Assembly: GCA_021848045.1 (NCBI GenBank) | Contig: JAJZNC010000046.1 | Span: 62,001-126,000, forward strand | Length of the DNA: 64,000 bases | Source: an archaeon | Lineage (GTDB): Archaea > Thermoproteota > Nitrososphaeria > Nitrososphaerales > Gagatemarchaeaceae | Direction of reading: 5' to 3' | Shown here: positions 4,633 through 21,712 of the stretch, piece after piece | Numbering within the stretch: the stretch's first letter is position 1 | Layout of the letters: the number at the start of each line of letters is the position of its first letter | Notes under the pieces: generated by a model | What the model was told of the DNA's origin: nothing | Databases searched by the model: none | Seen by the model: only the letters and a program-made list of their open reading frames with translations | Position numbers and translations under genes: made by a program

Positions 4633-6558
4633 CTAGGGCTCGCGACCCGCGAGGCTCTGGTTGAGGTAGAACGGGTCGGTGCTCGGGAGCGGGTTGGGGA
4701 ACGTCCTCTTCATCAGCTCGGCCGTGTCGGGATGCCCCTTCAGGTACTCGATTATCCCCTCGAGCCCCACCCTCCTGAAGAAGTACCCCATCTGTCCGGG
4801 CTTGCCGAGCTCATCCGGGCTGCCCCTCGATACGTAGAACTCGAAGAGCGCGCCGGTCACCTTCGGGACGTCTTTCCTGGGGACCATCCTCATGTATATC
4901 TGGCGGGTCTTGGGGTCGAAGACGTAGCCTCCCTGGTGCCTTCCGTCCTCCGTGCCTCCCAGCTTGAGGGCGTACATGTTGAACCCGGTCCCCATCCACC
5001 CTATCGTCCTGGTCGCCGGCTTGTAGCACTGCCTCTCGCACCCGGTTATCCCGATCGACTCGCTCATCTCCCCCCACCTCCCGTCCAGTTCGTCCAAGAG
5101 CTGGGGCTCGAACCTCTCAGAGTCCGTATAGGTGAGCCTGCAGGTGTCCCGGCCCACGCAGGCGCCCGAGAGTAGCCTTAGGGGGGTGTACGGCCTGCCG
5201 TCCCTCCCGCCGTACCCGAAGCTCTTCATCTCCTCCAAGAACCCCTCCTTCTCCGACTGGTCTAGGTTCGCGAAGAGCAGGTCCTGGTCCGGGGTCACGT
5301 GGAGGAGGACGTGCGGGTGGCGCTCGGTCAGCGCCCTCACCATGCTCTTGAGGTCGCCTCCGGGGACGTGGTCGATTATCCTTCCCGTCTCGATGAACGC
5401 CCCGTAGCACCACCTCCCGTCGGTCTCCTGCCGCGTCCACCCCTGGTGCATGAGCCTCGCCCCCGCGTCCAGGGTCTCTTCCGGTGGCTGGAGGTCGACG
5501 CCCCTGGCCCTCACCTGCTCCCGGTACCAGCGCACCCCCATCTTGAAGATGACGTACTTCATCCTCGCCCAGTTCCGGTTCTTCCTGTCGCCCCACTCCT
5601 GGTGGACGCCGACAATCGCGTCCAGCGCCTCCAGCAGGTGGTCCTCGCCCGTCGCGATCCCGAGAGGGAGGCCGAAGCTGGCGAAGGTCGGCTGGCCGGA
5701 CTTTTCCCCCTCGCTGCCGCCCACGAAGATCTGGAACCTCTCGACCTTGCTCCCGCCGCCGAGCATCGGGACCACGCCGACGTCGTCAGTCCTTACCTCC
5801 ACGCAGTTGTCCGCGACGTAGTCCCCCGTCCTCTCGTCGCGCTCGACCCCCGCGACCGATATCTTGAACTTCCTGTTTAGCAGCCTGTCGCCGTACTCGA
5901 ACTTCTCTCCTGGCGCCCTGTCGTCGCGCACGTACTTCGGGTCGATCTCGAAGATCTCGATGTAGCCTCCCGTCGGGAGCCTGAAGTACCGCGCCGCCCT
6001 GGCGGCGAAGGCGGCCGCGTCGAAGTACCTAGAGTACGAGGAGATGGGACAGGCGACCAGGTTCCTCACGTTGTCGCCGCATCCGTTTATCGTATAGAAC
6101 CCCGAGCTGGCTATCTCCTGCATCGCGGGGATCACGTCCCTCTTCTTGATCCAGTGCAGCTGGACGGCCTGGCGCGTGGTCAGCCTCAAGGACGGCTCGG
6201 GCTTGCCAGTGTACGAGTCTGAGGATGTGTACCTGGTCGCGACGTCGTCGAGGATCGCCCACTGCCTGGCCGTGATCGGCCCGCCGGCGGGTATGGCGAT
6301 CCTGAACATGTACATCCAGTCCTTCTCCTCGCCGGTCTTCGCGCGGTTGAAGTCGGTGTAGATGCCGTAGGACTTTGCAATCGCCTCCGCCGCCTCGGGG
6401 ATCCCGCCGTGGCCGTCGTCCTTGAACTGGTGGCTGAGGTTCAGGGGGCTGTTGACGTCCTTGACCGTGAGCGTGAGACCCTTGGTGGCGACCTTGAGCC
6501 TCTCGTTGCCCGACCACTCGTCCTGGGGCGTTCGGAGCGCCGGGTCGACGTCCGTCAC
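4633..6558 (-). CDS. Siroheme/[4Fe-4S] sulfite or nitrite reductase (ferredoxin-type hemoprotein)
   Basis: RLTTRQAVQLHWIKKRDV, NGCGDNVRNLVACP, cluster cysteines CVGRDTC and CERQC; adjacent to siroheme genes. Confidence 0.9.
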   Translation of the reverse strand: MTDVDPALRTPQDEWSGNERLKVATKGLTLTVKDVNSPLNLSHQFKDDGHGGIPEAAEAIAKSYGIYTDFNRAKTGEEKDWMYMFRIAIPAGGPITARQWAILDDVATRYTSSDSYTGKPEPSLRLTTRQAVQLHWIKKRDVIPAMQEIASSGFYTINGCGDNVRNLVACPISSYSRYFDAAAFAARAARYFRLPTGGYIEIFEIDPKYVRDDRAPGEKFEYGDRLLNRKFKISVAGVERDERTGDYVADNCVEVRTDDVGVVPMLGGGSKVERFQIFVGGSEGEKSGQPTFASFGLPLGIATGEDHLLEALDAIVGVHQEWGDRKNRNWARMKYVIFKMGVRWYREQVRARGVDLQPPEETLDAGARLMHQGWTRQETDGRWCYGAFIETGRIIDHVPGGDLKSMVRALTERHPHVLLHVTPDQDLLFANLDQSEKEGFLEEMKSFGYGGRDGRPYTPLRLLSGACVGRDTCRLTYTDSERFEPQLLDELDGRWGEMSESIGITGCERQCYKPATRTIGWMGTGFNMYALKLGGTEDGRHQGGYVFDPKTRQIYMRMVPRKDVPKVTGALFEFYVSRGSPDELGKPGQMGYFFRRVGLEGIIEYLKGHPDTAELMKRTFPNPLPSTDPFYLNQSLAGREP

Positions 6559-16666: not shown

Positions 16667-17161
16667 ATGGAGATACTTGAGGGTGACGCGATCCAGGGGG
16701 CCGTCCTGAGGAGCTACTCGAGGGACCCGCGGGGCTGGAGCTTCACGGTGCGCCCCTCTGGTGCCGACGGGTTCTTCGACGCTCTGGTCACGGGCCCGAC
16801 CGAGACCTGGCGCCTCAAGCTCGACACGATCTTCAAGCCGACGCCCCTCGTCCTGGGCGCCCGCACCGAGGAACAGGTCGCCGGCGCTACCGCTCCCCTG
16901 TCTTTCGGGTTCAGGAGGGTGGACCAGGAGGTCGCCCCGGCCCTCCTGGACGGCTCACCAGAGGGGGTCCGGAGGCTGGTCGAGCTGCTCCGCACTGCGA
17001 ACCCGGTCGCGCCAGCGGTCCCGGGGAGCTACGTCCAGGGGCCCATCATCTTTTCGAGCCGGGCTGCTCGCTCCACGTCCGACCGAGAGCGGGCGGTCGA
17101 GGAGAGGCTCTCCGCCGAGATGAAGGCGCTGGTAATGAGAAGGTATCCTGGCTACCACTAG
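16667..17161 (+). CDS. Hypothetical protein
   Basis: 164-aa ORF directly downstream of hemH; convergent overlap with cysC end. Confidence 0.6.
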   Translation: MEILEGDAIQGAVLRSYSRDPRGWSFTVRPSGADGFFDALVTGPTETWRLKLDTIFKPTPLVLGARTEEQVAGATAPLSFGFRRVDQEVAPALLDGSPEGVRRLVELLRTANPVAPAVPGSYVQGPIIFSSRAARSTSDRERAVEERLSAEMKALVMRRYPGYH

Positions 17162-17700
17162 AGCCTGTCCATGGCCCGGAGCCTGCCGAGGACGTACTCC
17201 ACGCTCTCTTCCGGAGTCGCCATCTCTGTCTCTACGACGATGTCCGCGTCCGAGGGCGCTTCGTACGGGTCCTGGATCCCGGTCATGTTTGTGATCTCGC
17301 CCCTCCTCGCCTTCGCGTAGAGCCCCTTGGGGTCCCTCCTCTCGCACGCCTGGAGCGAGGCCTTGACGTACACCTGGACGAACCTCTCCGCCCCGATGAC
17401 CTGCCTGGCAGCCTCCCTAGACGTGCTGTAGGGCGAGATGAGCGCCACGATCGAGATCACCCCGTTCCTGGAGAGCAGCTTGGAGACGAACGACACCCTC
17501 CACGCGTGCTCCTCCCTGTCCTCCCTCGACAGGCCGAGGTCGCGCGAGATCCCCTTCCTCACCTCGTCGCCGTCTAGTATCTCCACCATCCTCCCGCTCG
17601 CCTTGAGCTTCCCCTTGAGGAGGGTCGCGAGGGTAGACTTTCCCGAGCCGGGAAGGCCTGTCATCCAGAGGGTGAAGCCCTCCTGTGGCCCGACGCTCAA
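17158..17700 (-). CDS. cysC: Adenylylsulfate (APS) kinase
   Basis: GFTLWMTGLPGSGKSTLATLLKGKLKASGRMVEILDGDEVRKGISRDLGLSREDREEHAWRVSFV...GIQDPYEAPSDADIVVET. Confidence 0.96.
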   Translation of the reverse strand: MSVGPQEGFTLWMTGLPGSGKSTLATLLKGKLKASGRMVEILDGDEVRKGISRDLGLSREDREEHAWRVSFVSKLLSRNGVISIVALISPYSTSREAARQVIGAERFVQVYVKASLQACERRDPKGLYAKARRGEITNMTGIQDPYEAPSDADIVVETEMATPEESVEYVLGRLRAMDRL

Positions 17701-19148
17701 CCTCTCACGGCCTCGAGGGCTTCCCCGATCGTGCTCCCGGCGAACCCCGCCGCCCTCGGCTCCATCCCGAGGAGCGACGCTATCGTTGGCGCGACCTGCT
17801 CCGCCCTGGCGCCCTTGACCTCTCTCCCTCCGAGGTCCCTCCCGGGGACGCTCATCATGATCACCCCGTCCATCGAGTGCACCGAGTCGTCTGGCCCCGT
17901 GTCGTTCTCGAAGAGGTAGAGCGAGTCGTGCCCCACCGTCCCGGCAGACCTCCAGTCCAGGTCGTCGAAGTAGACCATGAGGTCGGGCTTGTCTCCCGTG
18001 GCCGTTCCGTAGAGCTTCTGCGGCTCCATCACGGAGTTCCGCATCCTCCTGCCTGTGTGGTCCCTTATCTCCGCTATCCTGTCGGCGAGCTTCCTCTTCT
18101 CCGCCTCGAGCTCAGAAGGCTCGACCACCCCCTTCGCCTCTCTCCCCTTCACGTTGAAGAAGATCCTGGCGTAGTAGCCTCCCCACCCCCACGCCTTGGT
18201 CCTCCCCCAGTCTATCTCCGCCTTGTCGAGCTCGACGGGGGCCTCTGGCCTCTTCACGAAACTGAGATACCCCTCCTGCTCGAGCCACTGGTTGACGCAG
18301 AACCCTCCCTGCATCGCCTTCGACCCGTGGTCGGAGAGCACAAAGGTGACCGTGTCGTCTCCGAGCAGCGGCAGGAGCCTCCCCACCCGCCCGTCGACCA
18401 TGGAGTAATAGTCGAGGTCGATCCCTTCATACTCGTTGCCGCTCACATGCTTGGGATGCCTCGGGTCGAAGAACTTCCAGAAGGCGTGGTGGAGCCGGTC
18501 GAACCCGATCTCGTGCATCATGAAGAAGTCCCACCGCTTGGTCTTGGCAAGATGCTCCGCGACGTCGAACCTCTTCTCGGTCATCTCGAAGAGCTCCTTC
18601 TTGACCTCTGCCCTGTTCTCTGTCCTGAACGTGACGTCGAAGATGTAGTTCCCTCCAGCGGCCTGTATGACCTCGTCCCTCAGGCCGTCGGGGTTGGTAA
18701 ACGGCCGCTCGACCGAAGGGGTGAGGAAGCAGGAGACGGTGGCCGCGTTGGCGACGCGCTTCACCGGGTATCCCGGAGGGACGCCGAGCACCACCGAACC
18801 GCGCCCCGCGTCGGAGAGTGCGTCCCACACAGTCCTTGCTCGGACGTTCGCCGAGGTGACTATGTACCCGTCGTTGTAAGAGAATCCCCTCCTGTGCTTG
18901 AACCCGTAGATCCCGAGCTCCCCCGGGTTCCTCCCGGTCATCATCACCATCCAGGCGGGAACTGTGATGGGCGGGTCGCAGGTCCTGAGCCGACCGTGGA
19001 TGCCCTCGCGGTACATCCTGCCGAGATTCGGGAGCTTCGTGATCAGCTTGTCGAAGAGGATCTCGGGGGGGACAGAGTCGAAGCCGAGCACTGCCACCCT
19101 CCTGGCTAGTCTACCTCCTCTTCCGTCGTCTGTCTCGTCCGATTGCAA
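17697..19148 (-). CDS. Alkaline-phosphatase-superfamily hydrolase (type I phosphodiesterase/nucleotide pyrophosphatase-like)
   Basis: RVAVLGFDSVPPEILFDKL...LPNLGRMYREGIHGRLRTCDPPITVPAWMVMMTGRNPGELGIYGF...VTFVLSDHGSKAM; located between sat and cysC. Confidence 0.9.
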   Translation of the reverse strand: MQSDETDDGRGGRLARRVAVLGFDSVPPEILFDKLITKLPNLGRMYREGIHGRLRTCDPPITVPAWMVMMTGRNPGELGIYGFKHRRGFSYNDGYIVTSANVRARTVWDALSDAGRGSVVLGVPPGYPVKRVANAATVSCFLTPSVERPFTNPDGLRDEVIQAAGGNYIFDVTFRTENRAEVKKELFEMTEKRFDVAEHLAKTKRWDFFMMHEIGFDRLHHAFWKFFDPRHPKHVSGNEYEGIDLDYYSMVDGRVGRLLPLLGDDTVTFVLSDHGSKAMQGGFCVNQWLEQEGYLSFVKRPEAPVELDKAEIDWGRTKAWGWGGYYARIFFNVKGREAKGVVEPSELEAEKRKLADRIAEIRDHTGRRMRNSVMEPQKLYGTATGDKPDLMVYFDDLDWRSAGTVGHDSLYLFENDTGPDDSVHSMDGVIMMSVPGRDLGGREVKGARAEQVAPTIASLLGMEPRAAGFAGSTIGEALEAVRG

Positions 19149-19248: not shown

Positions 19249-20403
19249 TCACTCGACGAAGGGCTGCTTGAACCTCAGGATGGCCTGCGCGACCTCTGGC
19301 CTCATGAACTCCTTCGGGGGCGTCTCGCCCTCGGAGAACATCTTGCGAAGCTTCGTTCCGCTGAAGTTGAGCCTGTCCTCCTCCTTGTGGGGGCAGGTCT
19401 TCTCGCTGGCGATCCCGGCGCACCTCCTGCAGTAGTAGAACTCTCTGAAGAAGAGAGGGGATATCCCGAGGTCCGGGAACTCCTTGAATATCTCCTGGGC
19501 GGCGTACGGCCCGTAGAAGCTCCCCACTCCGGCGTGGTCGCGCCCTATGATTATGTGGGTGCACCCGAAGTTCTTCCGCATTATCGCGTGCATGACTGCC
19601 TCCTTCGGGCCCGCGTACTGCATCTCGTAGTGGAGGACGCTGAGCACCACCGATGCTCTTGGGTAGTAGTTCGCAAGGATCTCCTTGTAGCCGGCGAGAA
19701 TCACCTGGTCCTTGAAGTCGCCGGCCTTCTTCTTCCCTAGGACCGGGTTGATGAATAGGCCGTCGACCAGGGCGAGGGCGCTCTTCTGCAGGTACTCGTG
19801 GTTGATGTGGGGGGCGTTCCGAGTCTGGAACGCGACCACCGTGTCCCACCCCTTCTCAGAGAAGAGCACCCGCGTCTCCTGGGGTGTCAGCGTATGGTCT
19901 GCATACTCGCCGTAGTCGGGGCGGACGACCGTCTTGAGCCGCCCGCATACCGCCCGGCTGCTCCCGTCGAGCGCCCTCGCCGCCCCCGGGTGCGCCCTGT
20001 CCTCCGTCCCGAACACCTTGTTGGCGTACTCCTGCCTCGAGATCCCGAAGCTCCCTTCGCAATGCATCAGCGCGACCGGGCGCGAGCCCTCGTCGACGAG
20101 GAGGATCTCCTCCCCGCCCGAGAAGGTGCGGTCTTCTGGGACCGGGAGGAGGACGGGGATCGTCCAGGGGACGTCGCTCTCCAGGCGCATGTGCTCGAGG
20201 ACGTTGAGATAGTCTCCTTCTGACATGAAGCCCTCTAGAGGGCTGAACACGCCGTTCGCGATGTTGGCCACCGTCGTCGCCGTCTCTTTGGTGACCATGA
20301 GCCTCTGGCTCTCTCCGAACCCCGCGAGGGCCGGAGAGTCAGGGGTCGTCTGGGGCACCTGGACAAGCCTCCCGCCGTGGGGCGCGCTCGCCATCGCGTC
20401 CAC
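19249..20403 (-). CDS. sat: Sulfate adenylyltransferase (ATP sulfurylase)
   Basis: GVFSPLEGFMSEGDYLNVL...VVAFQTRNAPHINHEYLQKSAL...MQYAGPKEAVMHAIMRKNFGCTHIIIGRDHAGVGSFYGPYAAQEIF; GTG start abutting the RHH stop. Confidence 0.97.
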   Translation of the reverse strand: MDAMASAPHGGRLVQVPQTTPDSPALAGFGESQRLMVTKETATTVANIANGVFSPLEGFMSEGDYLNVLEHMRLESDVPWTIPVLLPVPEDRTFSGGEEILLVDEGSRPVALMHCEGSFGISRQEYANKVFGTEDRAHPGAARALDGSSRAVCGRLKTVVRPDYGEYADHTLTPQETRVLFSEKGWDTVVAFQTRNAPHINHEYLQKSALALVDGLFINPVLGKKKAGDFKDQVILAGYKEILANYYPRASVVLSVLHYEMQYAGPKEAVMHAIMRKNFGCTHIIIGRDHAGVGSFYGPYAAQEIFKEFPDLGISPLFFREFYYCRRCAGIASEKTCPHKEEDRLNFSGTKLRKMFSEGETPPKEFMRPEVAQAILRFKQPFVE

Positions 20404-20622
20404 CTACAGGTATCCCAGCGCCTGGAGGCGCTTCTTTATCTCCTCGAGGTCGGTGCTCGTGAACGGCTCTGGGACCTCCTTGAGCTCGTGCATCGCGACG
20501 ACCTCTCGCAGGACGTAGGTGACATAGTCAGAGACCGATTTGAACCCGGTCTTCTTGGAGATGATGGTCTCCAGCCTCTTGTGGAGCGTCAGAGGTATCG
20601 AGACGGAAGTGTACTTTGTCAC
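20404..20622 (-). CDS. Ribbon-helix-helix type regulator with C-terminal EEIKKRLQALGYL tail
   Basis: 72 aa: MTKYTSVSIPLTLHKRLETIISKKTGFKSVSDYVTYVLREVVAM...; RHH-like beta strand and two helices; first gene of the sat operon. Confidence 0.75.
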   Translation of the reverse strand: MTKYTSVSIPLTLHKRLETIISKKTGFKSVSDYVTYVLREVVAMHELKEVPEPFTSTDLEEIKKRLQALGYL

Positions 20623-20640
20623 GAAGCTCGCCGCCGAGTG

Positions 20641-20656
20641 TAATTACATGTAATTA
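20641..20656. promoter_or_regulatory. Putative operator site 1: TAATTACATGTAATTA (perfect 16-bp palindrome)
   Basis: Read directly; 18 bp upstream of the RHH start codon. Confidence 0.75.
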
Positions 20657-20696
20657 TGTTTTTGGGGTCGCCGGAAGCCGGCGGAGGTCCGGGCTG

Positions 20697-20712
20697 TAAT
20701 TATATATAATCA
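20697..20712. promoter_or_regulatory. Putative operator site 2: TAATTATATATAATCA
   Basis: 13/16 identity to site 1, palindromic except one base pair. Confidence 0.65.
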
Positions 20713-20717
20713 AGGCT

Positions 20718-20733
20718 TAATTACATATAATTA
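20718..20733. promoter_or_regulatory. Putative operator site 3: TAATTACATATAATTA
   Basis: 15/16 identity to site 1; starts 21 bp after site 2. Confidence 0.7.
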
Positions 20734-20746
20734 CCAAAGCCAGTTC

Positions 20747-21712
20747 GTGGCGGCGCTAGACCTCTCCTTCGGCGTCATCGCGTTCTTCGCTGTGCTGTCG
20801 CTCGCCGCCTCAATCGTGAACGGCGGACTGGGCTACGGCTACTCTTCTCTCTCCACCCCCCTCGCCCTCCTGGTCTTCGCCAACCGGATAGTCAACCCGG
20901 CGTACGTGCTGCTCGAGGCCGGGATCAACACGCTGATGCTCTTCCGCTCGGGCGGGTCCAACGTTCGGGCGACATACCGAAGGGCGCTCCCCGTGGTGCT
21001 CTCGCTCGTCCCTGGGGTGGTCTTGGGCAGCGTGGTCGTCTCAGAGGTGGCGCCCGAGTGGGTGAGGTTCGGGGTCTACGCGACGATACTCCCGCTGATC
21101 CTCCTCCAGGCGGCCGGCTTCAGGAGGCCGCTCAAAGGGGAGACGTCGGCCGCGGTGCCAGTGGGCGTCGGGGTCGGACTGATGTACTCGATCACGACGA
21201 TCTCGGGCCCTCCCATCGCCCTGTTCTGGAACAACCAGGGGCTGAAGCCTCGCGAGTTCAAGGCCGCCGTGGCGCAGGTGAGGATAGCCGAGTCGTACCT
21301 CGCCTGTCTCTCGTACTACCTCCTCGGGCTCTTCGGCGCGCAGAGCCTCTCCCTCTTCAAGGTGATAGCGCCGCCCGTCCTGGTGGGGGTGCCGGTCGGC
21401 ATGTTCGTGGCGACGATGGTCGCAGCCGAGACCTTCAGGAGGGTCTGCATGGCATTCGACGCGGGGATCGTCGGCTACGGCCTCTCGGTGGTCCTTCCCA
21501 CCCTCCTCGGGGTGGGAGCGGCCGTGGCGCAGTCGCTCTTCGTAGCCGTCCTGGCGGTCGACGCGGGGCTCCTCTACAGGTACCTCAAGGAGAGGCCTAT
21601 GGTCGCGGCGGGGGCCACGGGTGCGCTCGACCCGGGCGGAGGGCTGGCCGGCGGCTCGACGCCCGATGCGGGGGAGGGCGACCCCCACCCAGGTCCAGAG
21701 ACATATAGCTAG
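20747..21712 (+). CDS. TauE/SafE-family sulfite/organosulfonate exporter-like permease
   Basis: Multi-TM; SLAASIVNGGLGYGYSSLSTPLALLV...ISGPPIALFWNNQGLKPREFKA...GVPVGMFV; divergent from the sat operon. Confidence 0.85.
   Translation: MAALDLSFGVIAFFAVLSLAASIVNGGLGYGYSSLSTPLALLVFANRIVNPAYVLLEAGINTLMLFRSGGSNVRATYRRALPVVLSLVPGVVLGSVVVSEVAPEWVRFGVYATILPLILLQAAGFRRPLKGETSAAVPVGVGVGLMYSITTISGPPIALFWNNQGLKPREFKAAVAQVRIAESYLACLSYYLLGLFGAQSLSLFKVIAPPVLVGVPVGMFVATMVAAETFRRVCMAFDAGIVGYGLSVVLPTLLGVGAAVAQSLFVAVLAVDAGLLYRYLKERPMVAAGATGALDPGGGLAGGSTPDAGEGDPHPGPETYS

Follow-up and report, generated by a model that had tools for sequence, protein, structure and literature searches.

The 64,000-nucleotide stretch of DNA analysed here (the window) carries a sulfate-activation operon that opens with a small regulator gene. 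The question raised by this locus is whether that regulator controls the operon and the divergent transporter gene through the palindromes lying between them. The operon was read on the minus strand in the order RHH-sat-phosphodiesterase-cysC, and the window ORFs were tightly packed. The first ORF (20404..20622) encoded a 72-aa ribbon-helix-helix (RHH, CopG-like) regulator. It was followed by sat, for a Sat-type sulfate adenylyltransferase (19249..20403; PF01747, E = 1.5e-91; NCBIfam PRK04149 above cut-off); a type I phosphodiesterase/nucleotide pyrophosphatase gene of the alkaline-phosphatase superfamily (17697..19148; PF01663, E = 7e-41); and cysC, for adenylylsulfate kinase (17158..17700; PF01583, E = 1e-60; TIGR00455 above cut-off). 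The TauE/SafE-family sulfur oxyanion transporter gene was located on the plus strand (20747..21712; PF01925, E = 3e-16), divergent from the operon and 124 bp from the RHH gene. The RHH ORF ended at 20404 and the Sat ORF started at 20403, so that the stop of the one abuts the start of the other as the earlier note had described. The true start of Sat may be slightly later, because the alignments of relatives begin at Sat residue 4. The same note had given the operon as RHH-sat; both genes are present, but the operon runs on into the PF01663 phosphodiesterase and cysC. In most RHH operons of relatives, the PF01663 phosphodiesterase also sat between sat and cysC. No relevant bacterial sigma-70 promoter or terminator was found at the locus.

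The sulfur metabolism of the organism was also inspected. An assimilatory-type sulfite reductase ORF was present in the window at 4633-6558 (minus strand), adjoining uroporphyrinogen-III synthase. Neither a PAPS reductase (PF01507) nor a Sulfotransfer_3 protein was detected in the genome of the window, which is 88% complete. The nearest named records with an RHH match were the Thaumarchaeota MAGs AcS1-13 and palsa_1368, which, judged by isolate name, are presumably acidic-soil Gagatemarchaeaceae (Group I.1c). This is the family covered in PMC10640624.

Three near-identical palindromes were located in the intergenic region, at 20641, 20697, and 20718, exactly to the base as first noticed. Putative operator site 1, TAATTACATGTAATTA (20641..20656), was a perfect palindrome centred 26.5 nt upstream of the RHH start codon. 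Putative site 2, TAATTATATATAATCA (20697..20712), formed half of a four-box array facing TauE, and putative site 3, TAATTACATATAATTA (20718..20733), was centred 21.5 nt upstream of the TauE start codon. The three shared the pattern TAATTA-N4-TAATTA, and their starts were 56 and 21 bp apart. The boxes of sites 2 and 3 were phased by 10-11-10 bp, and identical phasing was found in two relatives (G306 and G315). When three mismatches were allowed, the 64-kb window contained these three sites only; 100 dinucleotide shuffles gave a mean of 0.01 sites, and 0/100 reached three sites. The whole 1.6-Mb genome contained one extra match, which carried 3 mismatches. Chance AT-rich sequence as the source of the palindromes was ruled out by the shuffles and the genome-wide count. 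Since there is a single site cluster in this genome, the term regulon, used in the earlier note, does not apply within it.

The RHH assignment of the 72-aa protein rests on sequence matches and on the helix pattern. Pfam RHH_1 was matched in 9/63 relatives (best E = 4e-6) and RHH_5 in one; the window protein itself reached no cut-off in the Pfam search. The best profile match found was a weak one to the RHH domain of NikR (PDB 2bj1, E = 0.2). Structure models were of moderate confidence (pLDDT 65 and 78); a KYTTVSIP segment preceded helices 11-22 and 30-48 in the model examined for this, and the strand was not assigned in the monomer. The N-terminal strand-then-two-helices pattern of RHH proteins was recognisable in sequence. 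In Foldseek, the first model had Mnt, ParD2, and NikR among its matches at E of about 3-5, which is not significant; the second monomer model gave no significant match, and a monomer cannot show the inter-subunit ribbon. K3, Y4, S8, P10, the GFKS-SDY turn, LRE, and the ALGY end were invariant among 28 RHH orthologs. The protein had no cysteine and no visible effector or ligand domain, and ended in a C-terminal helix and LGYL.

The distribution of the protein was investigated in the class, in the phylum, and in named genomes. The class search covered 401 genomes and gave an RHH match in 38, strong in 26 (E < 1e-20), over several families; most of the sampled genomes had none. The phylum search gave RHH in 45/350 genomes of many families. 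The named-genome scan added Baldrarchaeum, Njordarchaeota, another Asgard MAG, Geothermarchaeota, Aigarchaeota, an Aenigmatarchaeote, and a Patescibacterium. The orthologs showed 44-92% identity over many archaeal families.

Several features of the RHH proteins were recorded in addition. A tail of the form [RK]LxxLGY[LI] closed the window protein (20404-20442) and its relatives (e.g., L122, L187, L245, and L258). It was present in 109/112 cluster RHH proteins, 4/6 CysD, and a small number of CysC and AP proteins; among other genes it was found in 1/752, and that one was RHH-like too. In L255 (1181-1936, minus strand), CysC (APS kinase) was fused in frame to an RHH protein, and the regulator RHH and sat followed immediately downstream. 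Many Thermoproteota had in their sulfate-activation clusters a second RHH gene, more diverged and with the same tail (L219, L220, L222, L227, L236, L243, L252, and L254). L231 (4599-5240, plus strand) encoded an RHH extended at the N-terminus by a domain of about 150 residues, with a degenerate ribbon segment and no operator upstream.

The conservation of the site was investigated upstream of RHH genes picked on protein similarity alone. The score was the number of arm bases matched (of 12) in TAATTA-N4-TAATTA within 250 bp upstream; gene calls of relatives came from a simple scoring script, so start codons are approximate. In a close-to-distant set of 42 orthologs (own class, Asgard archaea, an Aenigmatarchaeote, and a Patescibacterium), 41 had at least 10/12 arm bases upstream, and 36 of these had at least 11. 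For most of the set, 0/300 shuffles equalled the observed site; in the AT-rich genomes L180, L183, and L186, it was weakly above shuffles (6-11 of 300 as good). The sole miss was G213, with no site within 250 bp upstream of its RHH gene. In the phylum-wide set, 24/39 RHH genes scored 11-12/12, including promoters of 56-63% GC, and 15/39 had no such site within 250 bp upstream. Absence of the palindrome from orthologous intergenic regions would have refuted the original proposal; it was present in both sets. RHH family members typically have tandem palindromic operators in their own promoters, and such operators are predicted here from sequence evidence alone.

The central four bases of the site varied freely (TATA, CATA, CATG, CAGG, CACG, AAAT, AGCT, GGGT, and others), and therefore the conserved unit is two TAATTA boxes 10 bp apart. 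Further phased boxes were found in Geothermarchaeota (10-10) and in G635 (10-10-10-10). Box-to-box distances were enriched at 10 and 20-22 bp. The statistic at 10 is partly due to construction, because the phylum set was chosen for having the site; that at 20-22 is unaffected. A position like that of site 1 recurred upstream of the RHH orthologs, and the distance to the start codon was mostly 12-45 nt, with some sites 50-120 nt upstream of the coding start.

The occurrence of the site was linked to the regulator. The exact palindrome was found in 12/26 RHH-positive genomes vs 7/375 others (Fisher p = 1.3e-11). The exact palindromes in the seven RHH-negative genomes (G082, G142, G156, G207, G294, G325, and G330) were considered as sulfate-activation sites and rejected; six of the seven loci were inspected, two lay inside a homologous coding gene, and none was beside sat or cysC. 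None of 13 sat genes without an adjoining RHH reached 11/12; the maximum was 10/12, and the score was usually 6-8. In 22 RHH-positive genomes, with up to 2 mismatches, 56 sites were found vs 11 for the reversed pattern. By hand tally, 33 of the 56 were at RHH, sat, AP-cysC, or TauE, and 11 were at other sulfur genes. The remainder is about the control number, and therefore the excess is accounted for.

The site also remained with these genes when the cluster was split or its enzyme replaced. In G147, RHH and sat were on different contigs, and in G170, RHH was about 0.29 Mb from AP-cysC; each had its own site. The CysD/CysN-type sulfate adenylyltransferase is not homologous to Sat; where it replaced Sat, in G204 and the Aenigmatarchaeote, RHH and the site stayed with the new enzyme. 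In the Patescibacterium, RHH and the site preceded a CysN-CysD-like fusion. The CysD/CysN identity was based on a family search in G204 and the Patescibacterium, and on order, size, and resemblance in the Aenigmatarchaeote. In G351, sites were present and no RHH was found, in a genome that is 72% complete. A scan of relatives had been proposed for the palindrome at sat and cysC genes, and in RHH-positive genomes unlinked copies of sat and AP-cysC, as well as sulfur genes, did carry it. The tie of TauE to the same sites was likewise borne out, since a divergent TauE shared them in G306, G315, G353, G400, and L158. Comparison of genomes showed that the putative operator follows the RHH regulator and the sulfate-activation genes across archaeal lineages.

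Two further loci were recorded. In G311 (L114:778-1200), a perfect palindrome was located before a broken RHH-like frame (GFKSASAYVMDVLREIA) ahead of a TauE gene; the frame is probably a decayed duplicate of the regulator. In G306 (L111:5933-5969), two intergenic palindromes 21 bp apart had no clear target gene.

Extra putative targets were found in g2, one genus of the window's own family (G213, G296, G332, G351, and G399). Here the site preceded a persulfide-dioxygenase-like metallo-beta-lactamase protein, a mercaptopyruvate-sulfurtransferase-like rhodanese, and an SsuA-family sulfonate-binding protein gene. The best solved relatives of the metallo-beta-lactamase were 3tp9 and 3r2u (beta-lactamase-rhodanese protein and kin), with ETHE1 persulfide dioxygenase lower. 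In the upstream alignments, the site was conserved and the flanks had diverged; the tandem spacing was 21-22 bp. In G399, a tandem site was also observed before a PstS-like binding-protein gene (L099:5766-5802), which suggests a transporter with a sulfur oxyanion as its possible substrate.

It is established for the RHH family that dimers usually contact DNA through a two-stranded ribbon placed in the major groove. We consider it highly probable that the RHH protein is an autoregulatory repressor of sulfate activation acting on phased TAATTA boxes; binding, sign, stoichiometry, and signal are inferred. The 6-bp TAATTA box would be the unit bound by RHH dimers, and a pair of boxes at a distance of 10 bp would make one 16-bp operator. 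Given ribbon-in-groove binding, one dimer per box with cooperative filling is the simplest reading. Successive operators are in phase with one another (10-11-10 bp in the window), which would place several dimers on one face of the DNA. Site 1 would cover the core promoter of the RHH-sat-phosphodiesterase-cysC operon, and sites 2 and 3 that of TauE; sites common to both would explain joint control. Bound RHH most likely represses both promoters by blocking TBP/TFB or RNA polymerase, and would release them on sulfur status. Most sites, at 12-45 nt upstream, fall in the TATA-to-start region of leaderless archaeal mRNAs, and therefore repression by occlusion is favoured. The RHH-based control of sulfate activation and TauE proposed in the earlier note is thus supported as a prediction, on evidence that is comparative throughout; binding, sign, effector, and the export direction of TauE have not been shown.

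Activation of the operon by RHH, rather than repression, is unlikely. The sites at 50-120 nt would suit an activator, and the sign is without experimental data; most sites, however, lie over the core promoter and initiation region, as expected for a repressor. As to the signal, it is improbable, though conceivable, that the repressor senses the sulfate-activating enzymes, its C-terminal helix and LGYL tail docking on the machinery and coupling DNA release to enzyme or APS/PAPS status. Nearly all cluster RHH proteins have this tail, as do CysD C-termini. With such docking, an effector domain would not be needed.

A rival reading, in which the palindromes serve as AT-rich TATA/BRE elements at the core of two divergent archaeal promoters and not as operators, is very doubtful. 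The position of the palindromes, about 21-27 nt before the start codons, is indeed that of the TATA box for a leaderless archaeal mRNA, and TATA was contained in 52/85 collected sites. However, the arms were kept while the centre became CATG, CAGG, CACG, AGCT, or GGGT, which destroys TATA. The sites were also tandem and phased, were absent from sat promoters without RHH, and occurred at almost no other promoter in the genome. They may overlap the TATA box besides being operators. Equally doubtful is binding by another regulator, such as the second RHH paralog, with the window RHH merely co-regulated. That paralog, with the same tail, is present in many clusters, but the window genome had a single RHH match at E ≤ 1e-3, many site-bearing operons held this RHH only, and the site was directly upstream of RHH even when it was unlinked from sat (G147 and G170). 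That the protein is an antitoxin sitting by sat by chance can practically be dismissed: RHH proteins are common antitoxins and one relative matched Pfam RelB-like, but no toxin-like partner gene was present, and the partner was sat or CysDN over several phyla.

The predicted repressor was compared with known systems. MetJ of enterobacteria is a small, autoregulatory RHH repressor of sulfur metabolism that acts cooperatively on tandem short palindromic boxes. It controls methionine genes, uses S-adenosylmethionine, and binds 8-bp met boxes (AGACGTCT type) spaced 8 bp. The window RHH is not detectably related to MetJ beyond the RHH fold, and its boxes do not meet the MetJ pattern, being 6-bp TAATTA at 10 or 11 bp. 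NikR (PDB 2bj1) shares the RHH DNA-binding domain, but the window protein lacks the metal-binding ACT-like domain of NikR. CstR, SqrR, BigR, and FisR are persulfide/sulfide regulators of persulfide dioxygenase and rhodanese genes. Their targets resemble the apparent targets of the g2 sites; however, they are cysteine-sensing proteins of the CsoR, ArsR, or sigma54 type, whereas the window RHH has no cysteine.

In the sulfate cluster of Pyrococcus yayanosii, CopG PYCH_17520 adjoins the genes for ATP sulfurylase, type I phosphodiesterase, and APS kinase; a TauE gene is close by. This CopG was said in 2021 to "potentially regulate" the pathway (PMC8268124). The window set of CopG, sat, PF01663, cysC, and TauE has the content of this Pyrococcus-type cluster, and the two regulators keep the same gene company; sequence orthology to PYCH_17520 is not established. 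The Pyrococcus cluster has a DHH pAp phosphatase, whereas the window operon has none, and the paper describes neither an operator nor binding nor the distribution of the gene. In Palaeococcus pacificus, CopG PAP_09880 and sat PAP_09885 were both more abundant with elemental sulfur (PMC6981617). Their locus tags are neighbouring, like the window RHH and sat. That study reported an expression change only, with no DNA site or mechanism. If orthology, which is not established, holds, the rise would be independent support for RHH-sat regulation. No description of an operator for the RHH/CopG of the sulfate cluster was found in the open-access literature searched (subscription papers and preprints were outside the search). 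The system had been called undescribed; the operator and its spread appear new, but the Pyrococcus yayanosii CopG had already been named a potential regulator.

The control of sulfate activation in archaea is largely unknown, and the literature searched offered a passing remark on CopG and one expression study. Here, a regulator and its predicted exact operator are conserved in Nitrososphaeria, in other Thermoproteota, and in Asgard archaea, and relatives occur in DPANN and Patescibacteria. Within g2, a genus of the window's family, the sites link assimilation genes to genes for persulfide handling. The RHH/operator pair is a directly testable system and supplies a motif with which the sulfur regulons of uncultured lineages can be mapped.
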